Below, in pieces: positions 681 through 19,277 of a stretch of DNA of 23,376 nt (position 1 is its first letter; each line of letters begins with the position of its first letter). The stretch is from the IMG/VR virus record IMGVR_UViG_3300049225_000371, positions 1-23,376 of that record; one strand, 5' to 3'. The notes beneath the pieces were generated by a model. The model saw nothing but the letters and a program-made list of their open reading frames with translations. It was not told the DNA's origin and did not search any database. Both the position numbers and the translations under genes were made by a program. The DNA comes from a virus.

Positions 681-1057
681 CAGAAACCTTGAGCGGTGAA
701 ACATGCTTGTGTAGCTGCCTTGTATTCGGCATGGGCTGCGTCATTCCAGAAAACTTCTGGATGACCAAGAGTTTTCAGAAATGAAGAGTGGTGTTTGCCA
801 ACGACGTGCGTGCCACGCATGAGAACGGTGTAGTGCCCATATTTTTCAACGTGGGCAGCTTTTGCTTTTGCCTCGCAAGCTTCGGCAAGCTTGGTGCGGT
901 CGCGCTCGCTGCGTGCGGCGTCTCCGTGCTTGCAGAAAGTGCTAGAGCCGGTGAAGTGGCAACGGGTGTAAAGGTCGCCGTTGTAAACCTCGTAAACCTG
1001 GGCTTGTGCAGGAGCAGCGATGAAGGTGATGGCTGCAAATGCGGTTAAAAGTTTCAT
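680..1057 (-). CDS. Secreted protein with Sec signal peptide, unknown function
   Basis: A 125-residue precursor. The N-terminus MKLLTAFAAITFIAAPAQAQ is a textbook Sec signal peptide with a likely cut after AQA, leaving about 106 residues. The mature part has four cysteines (RCHF, TFCK, EACEA, QACF), which could form two disulfides, and several His and Tyr. An upstream in-frame start at 1111 would add 18 residues ahead of the signal and is rejected. The gene follows 1108-1296 after a 50-base gap holding a strong GC hairpin and is coupled to the next gene by TGATG. An exported phage accessory protein may alter the envelope (superinfection exclusion or lysis-related are possibilities), but nothing shows which. 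Confidence 0.75.
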   Translation of the reverse strand: MKLLTAFAAITFIAAPAQAQVYEVYNGDLYTRCHFTGSSTFCKHGDAARSERDRTKLAEACEAKAKAAHVEKYGHYTVLMRGTHVVGKHHSSFLKTLGHPEVFWNDAAHAEYKAATQACFTAQGF

Positions 1058-1083
1058 TGGGTTGAAGTGGTGAGGTTGGTAGA

Positions 1084-1099
1084 GCCCCCTCTCGGGGGC
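1084..1099 (-). promoter_or_regulatory. Strong GC hairpin between operon genes
   Basis: GCCCCC (1084-1089) pairs perfectly with GGGGGC (1094-1099) around a four-base loop, in the 50-base gap between 1108-1296 and the secreted-protein gene. There is no T-tract, so it is not a classical terminator. It may set differential expression by partial termination or by protecting an RNA end. The stem is seen; the role is inferred. Confidence 0.4.
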
Positions 1100-1107
1100 G
1101 GTGGTGA

Positions 1108-1296
1108 TCAAACGGTGGAGACAAATTCGCCGTCTTCAAACATGCGGACCACGTAGCCACGGCCATTGTCAAACAGATCGAATGTTTCGCCGGGGCAGGC
1201 AGTTTCAACCCACAAGGCAAGAGACTTTTCAGCGCGAACTTTGGATTCGTATCGGTAAATGGTGGAGCTGACTTGAATGGTGGAAAGGTCAAGCAT
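1108..1296 (-). CDS. First gene of leftward operon, small hypothetical
   Basis: A 62-residue protein starting MLDLSTIQVSSTIYRYESK and ending MFEDGEFVSTV. The middle has ACPGETFDLFDNGRGY followed by a short strand-like segment. It is probably a small mixed alpha/beta protein with no membrane segment. It is the first gene after the site 1 promoter/operator (1339-1373), and the ATG lies 22 bases beyond a 5' stem-loop at 1319-1330. No clear Shine-Dalgarno site is present. The family is not recognised. Confidence 0.65.
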   Translation of the reverse strand: MLDLSTIQVSSTIYRYESKVRAEKSLALWVETACPGETFDLFDNGRGYVVRMFEDGEFVSTV

Positions 1297-1318
1297 TTGT
1301 TTTGAGGGTTAGAAGGAT

Positions 1319-1330
1319 CGGATCTCTCCG
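1319..1330 (-). promoter_or_regulatory. 5' leader stem-loop, site 1
   Basis: In the minus-strand RNA the stem CGG/CCG (3 bp) flanks a six-base AGAGAU loop; the loop can also be read as GAGA closed by an extra A-U pair. It starts 8 bases after the predicted -10, so it would sit at or beside the transcript 5' end. The next gene starts 22 bases later, the same distance as at site 2. Alone it is weak; its value is the repeat of the arrangement at the other sites. Confidence 0.4.
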
Positions 1331-1338
1331 ATGCACAA

Positions 1339-1373
1339 AGTATGACATGGTGTCGATCAGGTGTCAAGCACCT
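1339..1373 (-). promoter_or_regulatory. Operator/promoter site 1 (three 11-bp phased boxes)
   Basis: Minus-strand promoter with TTGACA (1362-1367), a 17-base spacer and CATACT (1339-1344). Overlying it are three boxes at 1348-1351 (TGGT), 1359-1362 (AGGT) and 1370-1373 (ACCT), each 11 bp apart. AGGTGTCAAGCACCT forms an inverted repeat across the -35. This layout recurs three more times to 3020. It drives the operon 1296 to 12. A protein binding three sites on one face of the helix over -35 and spacer would most likely repress. Confidence 0.7.
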
Positions 1374-1378
1374 AGTTT

Positions 1379-1406
1379 AAAAAAGGGGTGGCGGGGCCGA
1401 AGCCCC
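1379..1406 (-). terminator. Likely intrinsic terminator of the 1413-1586 gene
   Basis: On the minus strand GGGGC, loop TTCG, GCCCC (1393-1406) is followed after eight C-rich bases by six Ts (1379-1384). UUCG is a very stable tetraloop. The eight-base gap before the T-run is longer than usual, so efficiency is uncertain. It sits 7 bases beyond the stop codon and just before operator site 1, which would insulate the two units. Confidence 0.5.
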
Positions 1407-1412
1407 AGGCGA

Positions 1413-1586
1413 TCAGGCGGGGTCGATTTCGACGTAGCCCAGAGCGTCCCAGATGGCCTCATGGATTCCGTCATCAGAACCAAAGCCGAGCTTGTAGCCA
1501 CGCTCGCCAACGAATTGTTCGATGGCCTGTAAAGCGACGTAGGCAAGCTCGCCTTTGTCAAAAGAATTGGTGTCGTTGATCGTCAT
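1413..1586 (-). CDS. Small protein, paralogue of the 501-680 product
   Basis: A 57-residue acidic protein, MTINDTNSFDKGELAYVALQ at the start and LGYVEIDPA at the end. It aligns end to end with the 501-680 product (see that entry). The longer frame back to 1664 runs through the promoter and is rejected; the ATG at 1586 lies 22 bases after the site 2 stem-loop. It is a single-gene unit between operator site 2 and a terminator at 1379-1406. The function is unknown; duplication under two copies of the same control suggests a dosage or divergence role. Confidence 0.65.
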   Translation of the reverse strand: MTINDTNSFDKGELAYVALQAIEQFVGERGYKLGFGSDDGIHEAIWDALGYVEIDPA

Positions 1587-1608
1587 TGGATTTGGAAGCG
1601 AGGGGGGC

Positions 1609-1622
1609 GGCCATCTCTGGCC
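1609..1622 (-). promoter_or_regulatory. 5' leader stem-loop, site 2
   Basis: GGCC, loop AGAGAU, GGCC in the minus-strand RNA, 8 bases after the -10. The six-base loop is identical to site 1 while the stem differs (CGG/CCG there), so pairing is kept with changed bases. The gene starts 22 bases further on. Confidence 0.5.
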
Positions 1623-1630
1623 ATGCACAA

Positions 1631-1667
1631 AGTATTGCACACCTACGCGACAGGTGTCAAGCACCTA
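1631..1667 (-). promoter_or_regulatory. Operator/promoter site 2 (three 11-bp phased boxes)
   Basis: Minus-strand TTGACA (1655-1660), 18-base spacer, AATACT (1631-1636). Boxes lie at 1641-1644 (ACCT), 1652-1655 (AGGT) and 1663-1666 (ACCT), exactly 11 bp apart. The 16-mer AGGTGTCAAGCACCTA (1652-1667) is identical to site 1 (1359-1374), and ATGCACAAAGTAT around the -10 is also shared (1623-1635 and 1331-1343), so the two are duplicates with a diverged middle. It drives 1413-1586. Confidence 0.7.
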
Positions 1668-1814
1668 TAAGAAAAGGGGGTGGTAGCTGCCGGGGGGTCG
1701 ATCAACAATCCCCAAAGACCCTCAAGAGCAATGCCTCTCAATCTTTGGATCACTTCATCGCCCTGTATTTCGCGGAACCGCGTGTTGTATTGCAGGATCC
1801 CCGGCGCTAAGAGA

Positions 1815-2231
1815 CTACGGGTGATGCCTTCTCTCATGGCATTCACGGCATAAAGCCTCAACACCCCACCACAATTCATAGGTTTCATGGTGGTATTCGA
1901 CGGCTTTTGCTGACTGGCAGTCGCAGCAGACGAAAAGCCCCGGGCTAGGGAAGGTCTTGCGCTTGGCCCGCTTATTTATCATTCCTCTGGCGTCAATCTT
2001 TTGACGTTCAACAGGATCAGCTAAACGGGCCTTTCTGCGTTCTCTGTCTTTCGCTCTCATTTGCTCTAATCGAGCAGGGTCAGCCCTTCGGCGTTGTTGT
2101 TTTTGACCCCACTTTTCACGGTTTAGCTCCAACCAGTTTGGATCTTGCTTTGCAAGGTGATAAGCCTCGCGTTGCTTTTGCAGATGGCGAAGACGCCCTT
2201 CTGGTGATCTAGGCATTGAAACCAATGGCAT
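1815..2231 (-). CDS. HNH-like zinc-ribbon endonuclease, small
   Basis: About 138 residues. The N-terminal two-thirds is a highly charged Arg/Gln/Lys helix (REAYHLAKQ, then QKQQRRRADPARLEQMRAK), likely DNA-binding. The C-terminal part is a compact HNH-type motif: C-x2-C, then EYHHETY, VEALC-x2-CHERRH. The paired cysteines and the HH..Y fit a treble-clef HNH nuclease of the small phage type; activity is inferred. The frame opens upstream at 2291 with GTG, but that lies in the promoter. Usable ATGs are 2240, 2231 and 2216; I prefer 2231 because it lies 18 bases past the leader stem-loop, close to the spacing at sites 1 and 2. It is driven by the leftward half of divergent site 3. Confidence 0.65.
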   Translation of the reverse strand: MPLVSMPRSPEGRLRHLQKQREAYHLAKQDPNWLELNREKWGQKQQRRRADPARLEQMRAKDRERRKARLADPVERQKIDARGMINKRAKRKTFPSPGLFVCCDCQSAKAVEYHHETYELWWGVEALCRECHERRHHP

Positions 2232-2249
2232 TGAGGACATGAGGTTGAT

Positions 2250-2263
2250 GGCCGTCTCCGGCC
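2250..2263 (-). promoter_or_regulatory. 5' leader stem-loop, site 3
   Basis: GGCC, loop GGAGAC, GGCC in the minus-strand RNA, 7 bases after the -10. It has the same stem as site 2; the loop differs by two bases but keeps a central GAGA. It would be at the very 5' end of the HNH transcript. Confidence 0.5.
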
Positions 2264-2270
2264 CGTCCAT

Positions 2271-2309
2271 ACGATAGCACCTTGACTTCACCTGTCAAGC
2301 ACCTATAGT
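2271..2309. promoter_or_regulatory. Divergent operator/promoter site 3
   Basis: Two overlapping promoters facing apart. Minus: TTGACA (2293-2298), 16-base spacer, TATCGT (2271-2276). Plus: TTGACT (2282-2287), 16-base spacer, TATAGT (2304-2309). Between them are three ACCT boxes at 2279, 2290 and 2301, 11 bp apart, all in one orientation. One bound regulator could control both the HNH-like gene (left) and the 2330 gene (right), the classical layout for an autoregulated regulator gene. Confidence 0.7.
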
Positions 2310-2329
2310 GGCTGCAGTTAAATCCCCTT

Positions 2330-2524
2330 ATGACTCAACGAATAGACGGCACACCCACAGGCCGACGCGTCTTTGCTGTTCGCGTTAATAACGACACTCC
2401 AGACAAACTCGGGGCCATAGCTCTTGAGCGTGGCTTTTATTACATGGGCAAAGGCGGCGAACGTTTAGGCGCTTCCGGTCAACTCATGGATGCGATTGCG
2501 AATGGCCAAATCAAGCTCCCATGA
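2330..2524 (+). CDS. Small protein, possible ribbon-helix-helix-like regulator
   Basis: A 64-residue protein. RRVFAVRVNND could be a strand, TPDKLGAIALERGF a first helix and ASGQLMDAIANGQIKL a second, which loosely resembles a ribbon-helix-helix DNA-binding fold; I cannot confirm that by eye. It is the first rightward gene of divergent operator site 3, with the ATG 20 bases after the -10, so the leader is only about 13 bases. Its position makes it the best candidate in the window for the protein that binds the 11-bp phased boxes. It is coupled to 2521-2787 by an ATGA overlap. The regulatory role is inference. Confidence 0.6.
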   Translation: MTQRIDGTPTGRRVFAVRVNNDTPDKLGAIALERGFYYMGKGGERLGASGQLMDAIANGQIKLP

Positions 2525-2787
2525 AACTGACAAGGCTTCCCCCTGGCCCCGCTGATAGTTCTGGCAACTATCCCCAGGCTTTGTCGTTCTGCTGCCTTAA
2601 CTCTGGGACGTCAGGCGGCCACGCGGGGGAGCAGCAGAGAAGAAAGCGCCCTAAACGATCCAAACGATCAAAACAAGCGTGGCTCAGATTTCTTGAACGC
2701 AAAAGGCAAAGAAAAGAACGCGCAAATTTGCAGGTTCTTTCAATTCATCCCTCAGGCAAGAGCCCACCGGCGAGCGGTGGTTGGTGA
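2521..2787 (+). CDS. Small Arg/Lys-rich protein, coupled to 2330-2524
   Basis: An 88-residue frame starting MKLTRLPPGP, with a very basic middle (EQQRRKRPKRSKRSKQ and FLERKRQRKER). The ATG overlaps the TGA of the previous gene (ATGA). The basic segment would bind nucleic acid. The last 36 bases overlap the convergent gene 2752-2934, and a GC hairpin lies in the overlap. It could be a coupled partner of the 2330 product. The N-terminal third is not very protein-like, so the real product may be shorter or absent. Confidence 0.4.
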   Translation: MKLTRLPPGPADSSGNYPQALSFCCLNSGTSGGHAGEQQRRKRPKRSKRSKQAWLRFLERKRQRKERANLQVLSIHPSGKSPPASGGW

Positions 2788-2934
2788 AACGTTGAGGGCT
2801 GAAGCGATTGATTTGTAGGTGTGGCCAGCGGCTCGTAAGCGTTTGGCGTTTTGCTGTGGTGAGAGGCTGAGCCTCCAGAGAATGATCAATGGGAGCAGCA
2901 GGAGAGCTGCAACCCAAGCAAAGGTGCAGGTCAT
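2752..2934 (-). CDS. Membrane-anchored helix-turn-helix protein
   Basis: A 60-residue protein in two parts. Residues 1-25 (MTCTFAWVAALLLLPLIILW) form a single transmembrane segment. Residues about 28-58 form a compact helix-turn-helix like those of resolvase or transposase HTH domains: AKRLRAAGHTYKSIASALNV, then SPTTARRWAL. The HTH would lie in the cytoplasm. It follows operator site 4, with the start 25 bases after a leader stem-loop, as in the other units. Very small membrane-tethered HTH proteins are uncommon; it could sense envelope state or place phage DNA at the membrane. Another frame over the same DNA (2684-3007) is a shadow. Confidence 0.65.
   Translation of the reverse strand: MTCTFAWVAALLLLPLIILWRLSLSPQQNAKRLRAAGHTYKSIASALNVSPTTARRWALA
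2764..2780. promoter_or_regulatory. Hairpin in a convergent gene overlap
   Basis: CCACCG, loop GCGAG, CGGTGG forms a perfect six-pair stem in the 3' overlap of 2521-2787 (+) and 2752-2934 (-). There is no T-run on either side, so it is at most a weak or Rho-assisted stop for both transcripts. Confidence 0.3.
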
Positions 2935-2959
2935 TGTTCAGTTGTGAATGATTTTGTCC

Positions 2960-2975
2960 GCGCAGCGGTGTGCGC
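2960..2975 (-). promoter_or_regulatory. 5' leader stem-loop, site 4
   Basis: GCGCA, six-base loop CACCGC, TGCGC in the minus-strand RNA, 11 bases after the -10. Stem size and loop length match the other three leaders but the loop sequence does not. The gene starts 25 bases further on. Confidence 0.4.
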
Positions 2976-2986
2976 CTGACCCCTGG

Positions 2987-3020
2987 ATCATAGCACCTGT
3001 CAAGCACCTGTTAACAGGGT
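2987..3020 (-). promoter_or_regulatory. Operator/promoter site 4
   Basis: Minus-strand TTAACA (3009-3014), 16-base spacer, TATGAT (2987-2992). Boxes are ACCT at 2995, ACCT at 3006 and GGGT at 3017, exactly 11 bp apart. The 11-mers GCACCTGTCAA and GCACCTGTTAA (2993-3014) are direct tandem copies, and CCTGTTAACAGG (3007-3018) is a perfect palindrome. It drives the membrane-HTH gene leftward; the rightward terminase genes start about 75 bases away. Confidence 0.65.
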
Positions 3021-3089
3021 GTGACGGTTTTCATTTCGCTTGCGTATTGCACTTATTCGTTAACCTATAAGCACCTTCTTTATTCTTCA

Positions 3090-3413
3090 GTGAGTCAGAA
3101 GCCCACAAATAATGAGCTTCTTTTACGTGTAGACACGATTTACGGCATGTTGTGTGACGGTAAATCGCGTACAGACATTCTTCGACAAGGCGCAGAACTC
3201 TGGGGCTGTAGTGAACGAACTCTCGATAGTTACATTGCCAAAGCTCGCGTCAAACTTGAGGAAGATTGCCGCATCTCGCGTGAAGCCTTTATGGCAGAAG
3301 CTCTTGCCGGTTATCGCTCTTTAAGAATGCAAGCCGAAAGGCGTGGACAACTCATGTGCGCCAAGCAATGCCTTGACGCTCAAATTGCTCTTGTTGGTTT
3401 AGGAAAATCATGA
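3090..3413 (+). CDS. terS: Putative terminase small subunit
   Basis: I start this at GTG 3090 (MSQKPTNNELLLRVDTIYGM), giving 107 residues; the frame opens at 3021, but the extra 23 residues are odd and overlap operator site 4. Residues about 15-60 hold a helix-turn-helix typical of small terminases: an acidic-hydrophobic helix, SRTDILRQGAELWGCSERTL, then DSYIAKARVKL. A long helical C-terminal part follows, with RMQAERRGQLMCAKQCLDAQ and ALVGLG, a pattern common to phage small terminases. The role would be recognition of packaging-site DNA as an oligomer. Position at the head of the packaging module supports it. TATAAG at 3066-3071 lies 18 bases before the start. It is coupled to the next gene by ATGA. 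Confidence 0.65.
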   Translation: MSQKPTNNELLLRVDTIYGMLCDGKSRTDILRQGAELWGCSERTLDSYIAKARVKLEEDCRISREAFMAEALAGYRSLRMQAERRGQLMCAKQCLDAQIALVGLGKS

Positions 3414-7556: not shown

Positions 7557-9167
7557 ATGGCGGACAATCCTGGGGCTTATTCATCTGGGATCTATGGCCC
7601 TGGCAATGGACCGCCAGAACCTAAGCAAGAGGTGCAGCCAGGCAATGATCCCTCTTACTTGTCCGCTGCTTATTTGCAGATGAGTCAGGCATGGCAGCCC
7701 GTTAAATGCTGTCAGCTTGGTACTCAATATTTCAGAGAGAACGCCGCAACATTTTTAAGTCAAGAGCCACGGGAAGATCACGACGCATGGCTCAGGCGTG
7801 TTTCTCATGCTGTGTTGCCGCCATATCTGACTCGCATGGTTGATCAGGCCGTAGGCCTAATGCTTCGTAAACCAATCACTCTGCAATCCAAAGAAGGCAA
7901 TGGCGATGTTGATCCGTTTTGGGATGATTTCATTGCCGATGTTGATGGTTTTGGCACAAGCATCGAAGCATTTGCCAAACGCTTGGCCACAGAGTCGATC
8001 CTCACGGGCCACGCGGCAACGCTCGTTGACTTTCCTGCGACAGAACCGGCGCCGAACTTGGCGATAGAACGTCAGCTAGGGCTAAGGCCGTATTTCATCG
8101 GTCCTATCGCAGCCGCTGACATCTTGGGATGGCGGGCCGGTGATGAATCACCGATTGCACCCATCACGCAGGTACGCATCAACCGTTATGTAACTCAACC
8201 GGTTGGGCCGTTTGGTGAAGAGATTATTCGCGAAATTCTTGTGTTGTCCCCAGGCGCGTGGGAGACCTACCGCAAGAATGAAAGTGGCTGGGCAAAGCAT
8301 GACGAGGGCACCACAAGCCTCGCAAGTATCCCGTTATGCGTGACCTATAGCGCAAAGGTGGGCGAGCTAATCAGTAAGCCCCCGCTGCTGCCTATTGCTC
8401 AGTTGAACATTCTCACAGCACAACGGCTGGCTGATCTTCAACACGCTTTGCACGTCGCTGCATTGCCGATCCTGACTATTAGCGGCTGGGATGACACCGA
8501 CAGCACCATTGGCCTGTCTGCCAACAGCGCCATTGTTTTACCGCCTGATGGAAGCGCCCAATATGTAGAGCCTGCATCCTCTGCCTTCCAATCTCAGCAG
8601 GACTTTATTAGTCACCTTGAAAATCAGATGTCGAATCTTGGGTTATCAACCCTCTTCGCTCAAAAGAACGCAGCGGAAACAGCAGACAGCAAAAAGATGA
8701 GCCGCACAGACTCTGACTCAATGCTGCAAATCATTAGCCAAGACCTAGAGCGTTGCCTGCAAGATGCAATTGACCTGGCTGGGCAATTCTTGAATAAAGA
8801 AGCCCCCAAGGTTGTTATTGATCGTGACCTTGACCTCCAAACCCTTAGCAGCGAACAGGTCAACCAATATCAACAGCTATGGATGAATGGCGTGATCACA
8901 ATTGAAACGCTATTGAATATGCTGAAAAAAGGCGAGATTCTTCCTGATGTTGACATTGAGGCAGAAGTCGAAGCCGTCAGCCAAGAGAAGCTACAAAGCA
9001 TGGATATTGCATTAGCTGGTAGCGAACCCGTGGGACAAAGCCCAAGCGATTCCCCACCCGATGAACCCGATGAAGATGAAGGCGAAAGTGAAGCCAGAAA
9101 AGAAGTTGTTCGGCGTCTTCAAAAATTAGCCTTGCGTAACGGCAATAATAAGGAAGAGGCAAATTAA
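7557..9167 (+). CDS. Portal protein, DUF4055 type
   Basis: A 536-residue protein that would form the dodecameric ring at the capsid vertex, through which terL drives DNA and onto which the neck is built. The first 40 residues are Pro/Gly-rich and disordered. The body has features I associate with DUF4055 portals: PREDHDAWLRRVSHAVLPPY, then MVDQAVGLMLRKP, SILTGHAATLVDFP, and a long helix with NILTAQRLADLQHAL. The C-terminus is acidic (DEPDEDEGESEAR) and charged, common for portals. Length fits the family (450-550). It follows terminase and tiny basic genes and is separated from the fibre gene by three bases. Confidence 0.85.
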   Translation: MADNPGAYSSGIYGPGNGPPEPKQEVQPGNDPSYLSAAYLQMSQAWQPVKCCQLGTQYFRENAATFLSQEPREDHDAWLRRVSHAVLPPYLTRMVDQAVGLMLRKPITLQSKEGNGDVDPFWDDFIADVDGFGTSIEAFAKRLATESILTGHAATLVDFPATEPAPNLAIERQLGLRPYFIGPIAAADILGWRAGDESPIAPITQVRINRYVTQPVGPFGEEIIREILVLSPGAWETYRKNESGWAKHDEGTTSLASIPLCVTYSAKVGELISKPPLLPIAQLNILTAQRLADLQHALHVAALPILTISGWDDTDSTIGLSANSAIVLPPDGSAQYVEPASSAFQSQQDFISHLENQMSNLGLSTLFAQKNAAETADSKKMSRTDSDSMLQIISQDLERCLQDAIDLAGQFLNKEAPKVVIDRDLDLQTLSSEQVNQYQQLWMNGVITIETLLNMLKKGEILPDVDIEAEVEAVSQEKLQSMDIALAGSEPVGQSPSDSPPDEPDEDEGESEARKEVVRRLQKLALRNGNNKEEAN

Positions 9168-9170
9168 GAC

Positions 9171-11411
9171 ATGAACACCACTGAACTCTTAGAACTTGCC
9201 GCGATGGCGGCAGAAGGTCAGAAGGGCGAGCGTGGCCCCGCTGGTGTTGGCATTCGGGACATCAATCAATCGAGCCCAACGTCGTTCACGATTGTTTTAG
9301 AAGATGGACGTACGCAAGAAATCCAAGTACCTGCCCCGATTAAAGGTGAACAGGGGGATAGAGGAGCCACTGGCGGCAAGGGTGATCCTGGCCCTGCAGG
9401 AAGCGCAGGCAAGAATGGCGTGGCTGGATCTAATGGCCGAAATGGCCTTGATGGACAGCCAGGAACATTTGTAGATACCGGAGTTGTCACGCCTGATGGG
9501 CGTCTGCTTATTGGGTTATCGAATGGCACTTCTATTGATTGTGGGCGCGTTATTGGCCCGGCAGGTGCGACGGGTGCAACGGGTGCTACAGGATTGCCGG
9601 GTAAAGCTGGTAAAGACGGCACGTCAACGCTCACGGCGTTTCGCCCGCCGTCTCAAGATGACGGTAAAGAAGGTGATTCGTGGATTGATTGCAGCTCAGC
9701 AGAATTCAGCTTTTACAAAAAATTAGGTCAAGGCTGGAGCAAAATCGCAGACCTGCGACAACCGGTAAAAGACACCAGGATTTCAACTGCTGTTGGTGGT
9801 GGCGGTGGCGGCGGTGGTGGCGGTAACGGAGAGCTGCAGAACACCCGCACGCTGCCATTAATCAATGGAGGTTCAACAATCCGCAAGAGGGCGGAGGCAA
9901 GAGATCTGCCGACTGTCCCTGGGAAAATGGACACGCAGGAAGACGCAAACCTGTATTTCCTAGATGCAATGTCACGCGCAGGCGTGACGCTGTCTGAAGC
10001 AGTACCCAGACCGCCAAGTGTTGCGGGTCAGCTGTGGTTTTGCACATCACCTGATGACCTGACGTTGTACGTCTACGACGGCGCGGTATGGGTGCCTGCT
10101 GCACCACCGGTAAGCCTGGACGGTGTGCAATCGGCTATTGCCAGCATTGATGAGCAGTTGCTAAAGGTCAACGCCAATGTGGCGATGAACAAAAGCGAGC
10201 TAGATGAAAAGGCGTTAGATATACAGCTTGATCAGGACCGGCAAGACGCAGAACTTCAAGATCTACACGAAAAGGTCGATGGTATTGCGGAGGAATTTGA
10301 CCGTGGCAAGTGGGCGCACGTCACTGAAAAACCAACTGTCGGTCAATACGCATTAGGCGTTAAAGCGACCAAGGAATACTGCCAAGATCAATACGCAAAA
10401 TGCGTTGAGGATGCGGATGGTGATCCAGAAAAGCTAAGTGTTTGCACCCGCCAAATGGGTGATTGCGAAAACAAAGAAGACGAGGGAGGCAGTGTTTATG
10501 TAAGCCGCTGGGGTCAAGTTGACCACATCTCAATTCATACCGAAGAGTCAGATGGCAGTACCCACGGATTTGGTGATTACACGGCTGACAAATACATTGA
10601 AATTGTCAATGAAGGCGATGAAGGGAATGCCACTTACATAATCACAGAAGACGCAAAGATTGAAGACGGTGTTGCCATTGTGGCAGTTAGCGATATTCAA
10701 TCAACCGGCGCACCTAGCGGGCTGGGTCGATTTAAGGTCTTCGAGATGAAGTCAGGCGACCCAACCGATTACGTTAGAAAAGCTGGTGATTTGATGAATG
10801 GTGGGCTTCAGATTCAACCAAAGAAAGATACAGAAACTGGTTTAGTTGTTTTTGCAGGTAAAAATCTGCCATCCGAAAGCAAGGGAACTGTCTTTGCAGT
10901 TACGAATGCCAGGGGTCATGAAATTCTTCGAGTCCATAATCACGGTCGCATCAGAGCCGGAGGCAGGGAAATTGACTATACTCCCGAAGATGATTCGGAT
11001 TTAGTAACTAAAAAATATGTTGACCAAATGGGCCTATTACCAGGTCCAGCAAGGCTAGCTTGGCGGTGGCTCGGGGCAATTGACGGTGCAAAAGAGCCAG
11101 AAGACGGAGGATTTTATAAGTCGGGAGATTATCTGCGGATTAGCTTTAAGACTGACAATAATATAGATTTAGGTGATAATCTATTTCCAGATACCCAATT
11201 TCTTAGTACGCAATATGGCCCTTTTGGTACTATATGGAAATACAACGAAAAAGACAATAAGTGGCAAATGATGAGGCAGATTCGAGTTGATGGTTTCCGC
11301 TGGAACTACAACAATCACATGGAATATAATCTATCTTCGTCGCACGGTCGCAGCTTTAATGACCTTGTTGTTGGACAAGCTTATTACATAACTATTGGAG
11401 GATTTTTCTAA
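9171..11411 (+). CDS. Collagen-like tail or head fibre
   Basis: A 746-residue structural fibre. Gly-X-Y repeats occur in three blocks (about residues 16-28, 59-97 and 130-148, for example GATGATGATGLPGKAGKDG), separated by short globular segments; these should form collagen-like triple helices. A ten-Gly linker lies near 206-217. Residues 404-432 hold C-x6-C-x13-C-x6-C in a helical context, likely a disulfide-stapled hairpin. Towards the end, GDLMNGGLQI, then DLVTKKYVDQM, is the repeat typical of cyanophage and T4-like fibres. The C-terminal 110 residues are aromatic-rich and may bind the receptor. It sits unusually between portal and head genes. The long minus frame 9266-9634 is a Gly/Pro shadow. 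Confidence 0.85.
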   Translation: MNTTELLELAAMAAEGQKGERGPAGVGIRDINQSSPTSFTIVLEDGRTQEIQVPAPIKGEQGDRGATGGKGDPGPAGSAGKNGVAGSNGRNGLDGQPGTFVDTGVVTPDGRLLIGLSNGTSIDCGRVIGPAGATGATGATGLPGKAGKDGTSTLTAFRPPSQDDGKEGDSWIDCSSAEFSFYKKLGQGWSKIADLRQPVKDTRISTAVGGGGGGGGGGNGELQNTRTLPLINGGSTIRKRAEARDLPTVPGKMDTQEDANLYFLDAMSRAGVTLSEAVPRPPSVAGQLWFCTSPDDLTLYVYDGAVWVPAAPPVSLDGVQSAIASIDEQLLKVNANVAMNKSELDEKALDIQLDQDRQDAELQDLHEKVDGIAEEFDRGKWAHVTEKPTVGQYALGVKATKEYCQDQYAKCVEDADGDPEKLSVCTRQMGDCENKEDEGGSVYVSRWGQVDHISIHTEESDGSTHGFGDYTADKYIEIVNEGDEGNATYIITEDAKIEDGVAIVAVSDIQSTGAPSGLGRFKVFEMKSGDPTDYVRKAGDLMNGGLQIQPKKDTETGLVVFAGKNLPSESKGTVFAVTNARGHEILRVHNHGRIRAGGREIDYTPEDDSDLVTKKYVDQMGLLPGPARLAWRWLGAIDGAKEPEDGGFYKSGDYLRISFKTDNNIDLGDNLFPDTQFLSTQYGPFGTIWKYNEKDNKWQMMRQIRVDGFRWNYNNHMEYNLSSSHGRSFNDLVVGQAYYITIGGFF

Positions 11412-18156: not shown

Positions 18157-18715
18157 TTTCAATAGTTATCTAAGCGTTGCTGAGGGTGACGCATTAGGAG
18201 CCCAAGCTCTTGGTGATAACTCTTGGAATAACACCACAGAAGAAATCGACAAAGAAAAAGCCTTGGTTAATGCCACAAAATGGCTGGATACCTTGGACTT
18301 TGTCGGCACCAAATGCGATCCGTCGCAACCGTTGAAATGGCCTCGGGCTAATGCCGTTTGCGGTGATTACAACTACGGGTGCAACGATATGCCTGCGCAG
18401 GTGGAAGATGCCACTTTTCAGCTTGCTTGCATCTTGTTGGGTGATCCGACGTTTATTTCTGGATCTAACCCAGGCAATGACCCAAGTTCTGGCGGCGGTG
18501 TTCCTGGCCAGTTGATCCCTGGCATCAACAACAGCGATACAAGCAAAATCAGCCTTGGCAAAGGTGAACTCTTAGTTGAGTTCAAGGATGACGCCTCAGA
18601 CGGCGATGGAAACCTGATGAGCAAGGTCCCGATCTTGTCTCAGATCTTGGGTTGTCTAAGCACCACGGTTAGTGCTGTTGGTGATAGCCGGGTGCTGTTG
18701 CGTGTTCGTTCCTGA
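18125..18715 (+). CDS. Head-tail connector (DnaT-like/gp6-type adaptor)
   Basis: A 196-residue protein from ATG 18125, MSLTALLGAIDFNSYLSVAE. The pattern YLSVAEGDAL, DKEKALVNATKWLDTLDFVG, QPLKWPRANA, then AQVEDATFQLACILL is that of the phage 'DnaT-like' head-tail adaptor family, which in tailed phages sits under the portal. The name refers to a database domain and does not imply DNA replication. Length is typical. It is preceded by small helical and fibre genes and overlaps the sigma-like gene by 14 bases. Confidence 0.8.
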   Translation: MSLTALLGAIDFNSYLSVAEGDALGAQALGDNSWNNTTEEIDKEKALVNATKWLDTLDFVGTKCDPSQPLKWPRANAVCGDYNYGCNDMPAQVEDATFQLACILLGDPTFISGSNPGNDPSSGGGVPGQLIPGINNSDTSKISLGKGELLVEFKDDASDGDGNLMSKVPILSQILGCLSTTVSAVGDSRVLLRVRS

Positions 18716-19277
18716 ATTTCAGCAGCTGAATTTATTGGGTGAAGACCCTGGGGCCCCAAAAGGGGGGTGGCTGTGCGAAGCCCTGTCAAAACAGGAACAA
18801 CGTGAAATGCGCAAGGCATACGTTGAACACCAGGGGTTAATCAAGCTGATGGGGGCAAAGATGACGCGCAAGTATTCAATGGTCGAGGCGTTGGACGTCT
18901 ACAGCTGTATCGATATGGCGTTTATCAAATCTTGGCGAGCATGGGATCCAGCTAAAGGCAAATTCAGCACTATCTTCACGTCGTTTGCCAGCGGTGAAAT
19001 ACGGCATTTCATCCGAGACCACAACTTTGCAGTGACGGCCCCAAACAAGGTGCGGGCACTATCTAGCAGCGTTCGCCGTTTGGCCGGTGAAGGTCATGCG
19101 TTACCCAAAGTGGCTGAACTACTTGGCGTGACAGAGCAAGCCGTCAAAGATTCATTGATTGCCACCGCTGGCATGTATCACGAACAAATGGACTGGGAAC
19201 ATCATCAGTGCCCGCGTCCGACTCCATTGGAAAACTTGATCGAAGAGGAAGCGATTGAAATGGGCTGGGCAAACTAG
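18702..19277 (+). CDS. Phage sigma-like factor, regions 2 and 3 without region 4
   Basis: A 191-residue protein from GTG 18702. Residues 41-60 (VEHQGLIKLMGAKMTRKY) match sigma region 2.1, 61-85 (EALDVYSCIDMAFIKSW, DPAKGK) region 2.2, and 87-108 (KFSTIFTSFASGEIRHFIRD, then HNFAV) regions 2.3-2.4, where host sigmas read FsTYatwwIRgEIrRfiRD. A helix-turn-helix at 121-145 (LPKVAELLGVTEQAVKDSL) fits region 3 or a short HTH. There is no recognisable region 4, so -35 recognition is not expected. It would direct RNA polymerase to -10-like promoters, as T4 gp55 does. Position inside the late structural operon is unusual: it suggests positive feedback. Overlaps the connector gene by 14 bases. Confidence 0.82.
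   Translation: MFVPEFQQLNLLGEDPGAPKGGWLCEALSKQEQREMRKAYVEHQGLIKLMGAKMTRKYSMVEALDVYSCIDMAFIKSWRAWDPAKGKFSTIFTSFASGEIRHFIRDHNFAVTAPNKVRALSSSVRRLAGEGHALPKVAELLGVTEQAVKDSLIATAGMYHEQMDWEHHQCPRPTPLENLIEEEAIEMGWAN
19267..19277 (+). promoter_or_regulatory. GGGCAAACTAG box before tail tube
   Basis: GGGCAAACTAG matches the 7526 box at 10 of 11 bases. It contains the stop codon of the sigma-like gene and ends 24 bases before the tail-tube GTG. GGGCT (19262-19266) can pair with AGCCC (19276-19280) around it. Confidence 0.35.

Follow-up and report, generated by a model that had tools for sequence, protein, structure and literature searches.

Four promoters of the virus record IMGVR_UViG_3300049225_000371 from IMG/VR, analyzed here over all 23,376 bases (the window), share three ACCT/AGGT-type boxes at 11-bp intervals and an identical 12-mer, TGTCAAGCACCT. 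As judged from the DNA sequence, the four sites probably serve as operators for a single repressor that the phage encodes and that acts on early genes, its own gene among them. The sites and their promoters are as follows.

1339..1373, minus strand: site 1, with boxes at 1348 (TGGT), 1359 (AGGT) and 1370 (ACCT) and the dyad AGGTGTCAAGCACCT at 1359-1373.
Minus strand: site 1 promoter, with -35 TTGACA (complement of 1362-1367), a spacing of 17 bp and -10 CATACT (complement of 1339-1344).
1631..1667, minus strand: site 2, with boxes at 1641 (ACCT), 1652 (AGGT) and 1663 (ACCT) and a 15-bp dyad as in site 1.
Minus strand: site 2 promoter, with -35 TTGACA at 1655-1660, a spacing of 18 bp and -10 AATACT at 1631-1636.
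2271..2309, both strands: site 3, with boxes at 2279, 2290 and 2301, all ACCT, common to overlapping divergent promoters.
Minus strand: site 3 leftward promoter, with -35 TTGACA at 2293-2298, a spacing of 16 bp and -10 TATCGT at 2271-2276.
Plus strand: site 3 rightward promoter, toward the gene at 2330, with -35 TTGACT at 2282-2287, a spacing of 16 bp and -10 TATAGT at 2304-2309.
2987..3020, minus strand: site 4, with boxes at 2995 and 3006 (ACCT) and 3017 (GGGT) and the 12-mer at 2998-3009 in the spacer.
Minus strand: site 4 promoter, with -35 TTAACA at 3009-3014, a spacing of 16 bp and -10 TATGAT at 2987-2992.

A re-scan of the window agreed with a preliminary description of this DNA on the coordinates of the four sites and on all eight box intervals of 11 bp. 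The two boxes described there as imperfect, TGGT at 1348 and GGGT at 3017, were correct, as were the -10 hexamers (CATACT, AATACT, TATCGT and TATGAT on the minus strand), which are separated from box 1 by 3, 4, 2 and 2 bases, respectively. When three ACCT/AGGT boxes 11 bp apart were searched for, with 60 first-order Markov shuffles as background, two exact arrays (0.017 in shuffles) and five arrays with at most one mismatch (0.13 in shuffles) were found, the five being the four sites and a register-shifted duplicate at 1630. Thus, the arrays exceed chance, as had been claimed. The strongest regularity had been missed: the 12-mer TGTCAAGCACCT is present on the same strand at 1362, 1655, 2293 and 2998, and nowhere else in the record, even with one mismatch. 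Record L125 is near-identical to the window and runs 4.7 kb further left; over the 23 kb and this extension, there are four 12-mer sites only, all at promoters. Chance does not account for the 12-mer together with box 2, and the position of box 1 on its own is moderately significant (~1e-3 by our own estimate).

In sites 1-3, the complement of the 12-mer, AGGTGC-TTGACA, holds the leftward -35. Site 4 has its 12-mer in the spacer, displaced by exactly 11 bp (one turn), with the boxes still in register with the -10. The box intervals are constant at 11 bp although the spacing of -35 and -10 ranges from 16 to 18 bp. Over the -35, sites 1 and 2, which have about 30 bp in common at 80%, form a perfect dyad of 15 bp (AGGTG-CTTGA-CACCT), while sites 3 and 4 contain direct repeats.

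Some of this signal is ordinary promoter sequence. Sigma-70-type hexamers (TTGACA-like and TATAAT-like, 16-18 bp apart) were found computationally in sites 1-3 and by reading the sequence in site 4, and TGn precedes the -10 in all four leftward promoters. Box 3 is part of a TGC-TTGACA extended -35, box 2 has one base in common with the -35, and box 1 of sites 3 and 4 takes in the T of the extended -10 TG. The TGC before the -35 and the TG before the -10 are promoter features; these do not account for AGG in box 3, CC/GG in box 2 and much of box 1, for which another explanation is required. Scanning IMG/VR for CANNTGTCAAGCACCT, the 12-mer with CANN in front, retrieved mostly unrelated phages, and a stricter three-box scan retrieved this virus and unrelated records.

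Several observations weigh against operators of a single repressor. AGGTGCTTGACA recurs in promoters of unrelated phages, and box 3 is therefore partly a promoter feature: in an internal comparison, the loci having been picked for the 12-mer, 43 of 119 matches had a -10 at 16-18 bp, as against 13% of other TTGACA hexamers, and TGC-TTGACA alone reached 30 of 55. In an unrelated group (L025, L053), one single site resembles these three-box promoters, and the boxes are conserved in no relative. Moreover, the inverted sites 1 and 2 and the direct sites 3 and 4 are not readable alike by one simple dimer. The recurrence of AGGTGCTTGACA, the promoter enrichment of TGC-TTGACA and the likeness of sites 1 and 2 would all fit a reading without any operator, namely a strong-promoter cassette (AGGTGC before TTGACA and an extended -10) copied between small-gene modules, its 11-bp spacing resulting from fixed -35/-10 geometry. 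This is unlikely, as the 12-mer of site 4 is not the -35, the box spacing is fixed while the promoter spacing varies, and the SSTG that follows the -35 in four of four promoters is no promoter determinant; in addition, promoters of relatives lack AGGTGC but have a shared dyad of their own.

The preliminary description had proposed to look in relatives for boxes at the 11-bp spacing. These were scanned for and not seen: the 12-mer is absent from the terminase relatives, and the three-box array is limited to this virus lineage. Instead, early promoters of the same kind in L128 and L155 have another dyad in common, ATRCG-N4-CGTA, which adjoins the -35 in the arrangement TTGAC-N-ATRCG-N4-CGTA (L128 803-, 5486- and 8797+; L155 5617-). 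The sequences directly after the -35 are TTGACGATGCGTCTGCGTA, TTGACCATGCGCATACGTA, TTGACGATACGCAGACGTA and TTGACGATACGTATACGTA. A further such site of L155 belongs to the promoter of a gene homologous (51%) to the window gene at 1413; it is of the TACG type, without AGGTG boxes, and the homologue has the same leader hairpin as site 2. A changed operator with a kept gene and leader would be predicted by a co-evolving repressor, not by a fixed promoter element, and the relatives' different shared dyad is the strongest support for reading the sites as shared operators.

Other repeats were observed in the group. L139 has three leftward promoters (~8070, 8330 and 9300, minus strand) of consensus TTGACA-18-TATAAT with a shared CCATG-ACA stretch and a small inverted repeat after each; they are without ACCT boxes and represent a third promoter type in the group. 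L134 and L140 contain seven TACGCCTACGCA-like repeats on both strands (e.g., L134 1502, 1783, 2115, 2735, 3365 and 6317). The TACG-like repeats of L134 and L140, similar to the L128 operator, were numerous and not clearly at promoters, and were not used.

The boxes lie at about -16, -27 and -38 (estimated from the -10), within the polymerase footprint. Since they occupy this footprint and the promoters are near consensus, repression by occlusion is the simplest reading. Symmetric protein units would occupy the ASST boxes, which follow each other at one helical turn on the same DNA face, and would cover the -10, the spacer and the -35, so that RNA polymerase would be unable to bind. In this way, the leftward early/small-gene promoters at sites 1, 2 and 4 would be shut off, as would the two overlapping promoters of site 3, the leftward one and the rightward one of the 2330 gene. 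That ACCT and AGGT replace each other at a fixed spacing would suit one symmetric unit per box. Of the repressor or activator proposed in the preliminary description, the repressor was retained and the activator was not, because the boxes sit inside near-consensus core promoters, which should need no activator. We infer repression over activation, binding by one phage protein, and cooperativity. The proposed phage-controlled regulon of small genes with a common operator is well supported by the restriction of the sites to promoters, the kept register and the equivalent operator of relatives; it comprises the leftward early genes and probably 2330 itself.

Shut-off of early genes in the lytic cycle is no less likely than lysogeny, since no integrase (PF00589) was matched across 17 records and no CI-like repressor (HTH_3) above cut-off in the sequences examined, records that may be fragments in both cases. 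No provirus was found in GTDB genomes by terminase profile search, and KBS2A has been described as being without integration elements (PMC3751600). Should integration never occur in such phages, an operator array of the lambda type would have to act in lysis timing or superinfection exclusion and not in lysogeny.

The protein named in the preliminary description as the best candidate binder is encoded next to site 3.

2330..2524, plus strand: candidate regulator of 64 aa, adjoining site 3, from a small cyanobacterial plasmid/phage protein family.

Two promoters under the same boxes, as at site 3, are commonly seen where a repressor gene is autoregulated. Because of this autoregulatory position, its cyanobacteria-restricted family and a related motif upstream of its homologues, the 2330 product is still the best candidate binder; it has no family match, and its structure models are of low confidence. 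It is quite possibly, if not quite probably, the repressor that binds the boxes, and it is tentatively regarded as autoregulated. In viral and GTDB contigs, the protein was found in the same virus only, with one distant relative added by profile search; among viral contigs it is thus confined to this lineage apart from remote relatives. Homologues are encoded on plasmids of Calothrix, Nostoc and Fischerella and on one viral contig and, via that contig, by Planktothrix phage PaV-LD. Upstream of the start codons of the homologues, TGTAAACCACTT (two) and TGTCAAGCAGAA, both just upstream and on cyanobacterial plasmids, and TGTACACCACTT/A (two) resemble the window 12-mer, and TGTAAACTGG lies upstream of the PaV-LD start. 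The summed best match upstream of the homologues was 43, as compared to 35.4 for shuffled patterns (P ~0.0007), a value weakened by relatedness, as four of the sequences are close relatives and the best match lies elsewhere in L187 and L193.

The family pattern is a short strand with alternating residues, a helix, a loop and a helix, and by inspection the 2330 product may tentatively be called ribbon-helix-helix-like. A ribbon-helix-helix protein would explain the interchangeability of ACCT and AGGT, and tandem short, orientation-tolerant operator boxes, as bound by some such proteins, are present here as a DNA feature only. On the other side of the balance, together with the points on the boxes given above, the ribbon-helix-helix family RHH_1 (PF01402) had no match in the record, including the 2330 product; AlphaFold gave a low-confidence fold (pLDDT ~50 with one and with two input sequences); and hhalign to ribbon-helix-helix proteins was weak (probability 21%, P 0.001). 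Searches of Pfam, PHROG and NCBIfam and PDB sequence searches gave no match for the product. Just upstream of the 2330-family gene, next to the start codon, L185, L186, L187 and L193 have a conserved TGTANACCACT, which in some of them is followed by an inverted partner, e.g., TGGTTGACA; it is possibly the autoregulatory operator of the cyanobacterial plasmid protein family.

The second candidate of the preliminary description is a membrane-anchored helix-turn-helix protein.

2752..2934, minus strand: membrane-anchored helix-turn-helix protein downstream of site 4 (HTH_23, E=2.6e-6).

Its HTH_23 match and the position of its gene behind site 4 would fit a regulator binding the boxes. This role is disfavoured and appears most improbable, because the protein is conserved (about 72% identical in L128 and ~50-70% elsewhere) and its recognition helix is nearly unchanged in L128, while the operators differ. 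In the leader of the L128 homologue (8550-8600), a stretch resembling a tRNA T-arm plus acceptor stem (CACCGGTTCGATTCCGGT...CGGGAC) was observed.

The window is probably a fragment of a virus genome. Its rightward genes encode the large terminase, portal, head proteins and tape measure, while the leftward genes are probably early/replication genes, since the leftward arm of L125, from a reading of translations, appears to go on with RusA-like resolvase, nuclease and AAA-type ATPase genes. By terminase (41%), the nearest phage records are the Synechococcus WH7803 siphoviruses KBS-S-2A and S-H1. The host is probably a cyanobacterium, because both these records and, for the 2330 protein, the best relatives in databases are cyanobacterial. 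The leftward genes behind sites 1-3 are the following.

1108..1296, minus strand: small early gene downstream of site 1, with a homologue in L152 (90%).
1413..1586, minus strand: small early gene downstream of site 2, with the L155 homologue (51%) mentioned above.
1815..2216, minus strand: endonuclease-like protein (PHROG 2340), downstream of the site 3 leftward promoter.

Among the structural genes, a sigma-70-like gene at 18672-19277 (plus strand) matched PHROG 351 (E 7e-14) and, below cut-off, Pfam Sigma70_r2 (E 3e-4); it may serve late transcription. The structural protein encoded at 9171-11411 has collagen-like GXX repeats close to its N-terminus and is probably a tail or fibre protein.

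In four minus-strand leaders of the window, a hairpin capped by GAGA precedes the start codon by 9-26 nt; the stems differ.

1084..1099, minus strand: leader hairpin GCCCCC[GAGA]GGGGGC, upstream of the 680-1057 gene.
1317..1332, minus strand: leader hairpin ATCGGA[GAGA]TCCGAT, in the site 1 transcript.
1608..1623, minus strand: leader hairpin TGGCCA[GAGA]TGGCCG, in the site 2 transcript, with U-G as the outermost pair.
2250..2263, minus strand: leader hairpin GGCCG[GAGA]CGGCC, in the site 3 leftward transcript.
Relatives: leader hairpins at L128 5448-, 7593-, 8323+ and 8834+, at L155 5579-, 5696+ and 6107+, and at L150 9203+.

Scanning 1.86 Mb for a GAGA or GCGA (GNRA) loop followed by CCTC and an open reading frame of at least 35 codons, a rule set after the first cases had been seen, yielded 12 cases, confined to the window, L128, L155 and L150 (copies of the window uncounted). 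The restriction of the hairpin to this phage group is therefore a lead rather than a test. Rfam had no match in window 900-3200, and the hairpin is possibly an mRNA-stability or translation element. Kissing of GAGA loops with the ACCTC motif was considered and dropped, as GCGA loops do not fit.

In a limited literature search, no publication on the control of early genes in cyanobacterial siphoviruses was found. The window offers a compact, testable circuit of four promoters with one candidate regulator beside one of them and relatives with swapped operators as a natural control. It is conceivable, if rather doubtful, both that the 2330 protein belongs to a hitherto undescribed family of ~60-aa autoregulatory DNA-binding proteins of cyanobacterial plasmids and phages and that apparently non-integrating cyanosiphoviruses swap repressor/operator specificities at otherwise conserved early promoters. 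If true, the specificity swap would amount to heteroimmunity without lysogeny.

Among known systems, an 11-bp repeat period is found in PhoB-type Pho boxes and OmpR/PhoB half-sites. This period is shared by the boxes described here, and with the three direct repeats of site 3 it would fit a host regulator, e.g., an OmpR/PhoB-type response regulator through which the phage reads the host state. Such a regulator is very improbable: Pho boxes have one orientation, whereas sites 1 and 2 are inverted, the boxes lie inside the core promoter, and if a conserved host factor were the binder, relatives would not be expected to have a different operator in promoters of this kind. Sites 1-3 are also without the TTAA core of what we take to be the Pho-box consensus.

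Lambdoid CI/Cro systems have three sites over divergent promoters, and the operator type differs between related phages. Both features are found here; unlike in those systems, neither a CI-like HTH_3 protein above cut-off nor an integrase was found in the sequences compared, and spacing and site design differ.

The ribbon-helix-helix protein omega of pSM19035 binds direct or inverted repeats as dimers (PMC9499535). Omega and other ribbon-helix-helix repressors resemble the present case in short boxes in either orientation, several dimers side by side and autoregulated promoters (PMC9499535). The omega heptads, in contrast, abut every 7 bp, whereas the boxes here are 11 bp apart, and the 2330 protein resembles this type only by inspection.

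The repressor of the cluster A mycobacteriophage L5 blocks polymerase at promoters through its repeated site (PMC9283540). L5 is temperate and has more than 20 13-mers, many away from promoters, whereas here there are four sites, all at promoters and in phased three-box arrays, and no L5-type repressor was seen. The L5 operators/stoperators are copies of one short asymmetric sequence in one orientation relative to transcription (PMC9283540), comparable to the 12-mer present four times on the same strand. For a repeated asymmetric site over promoters of early genes, the closest parallel is provided by L5-type repressors.

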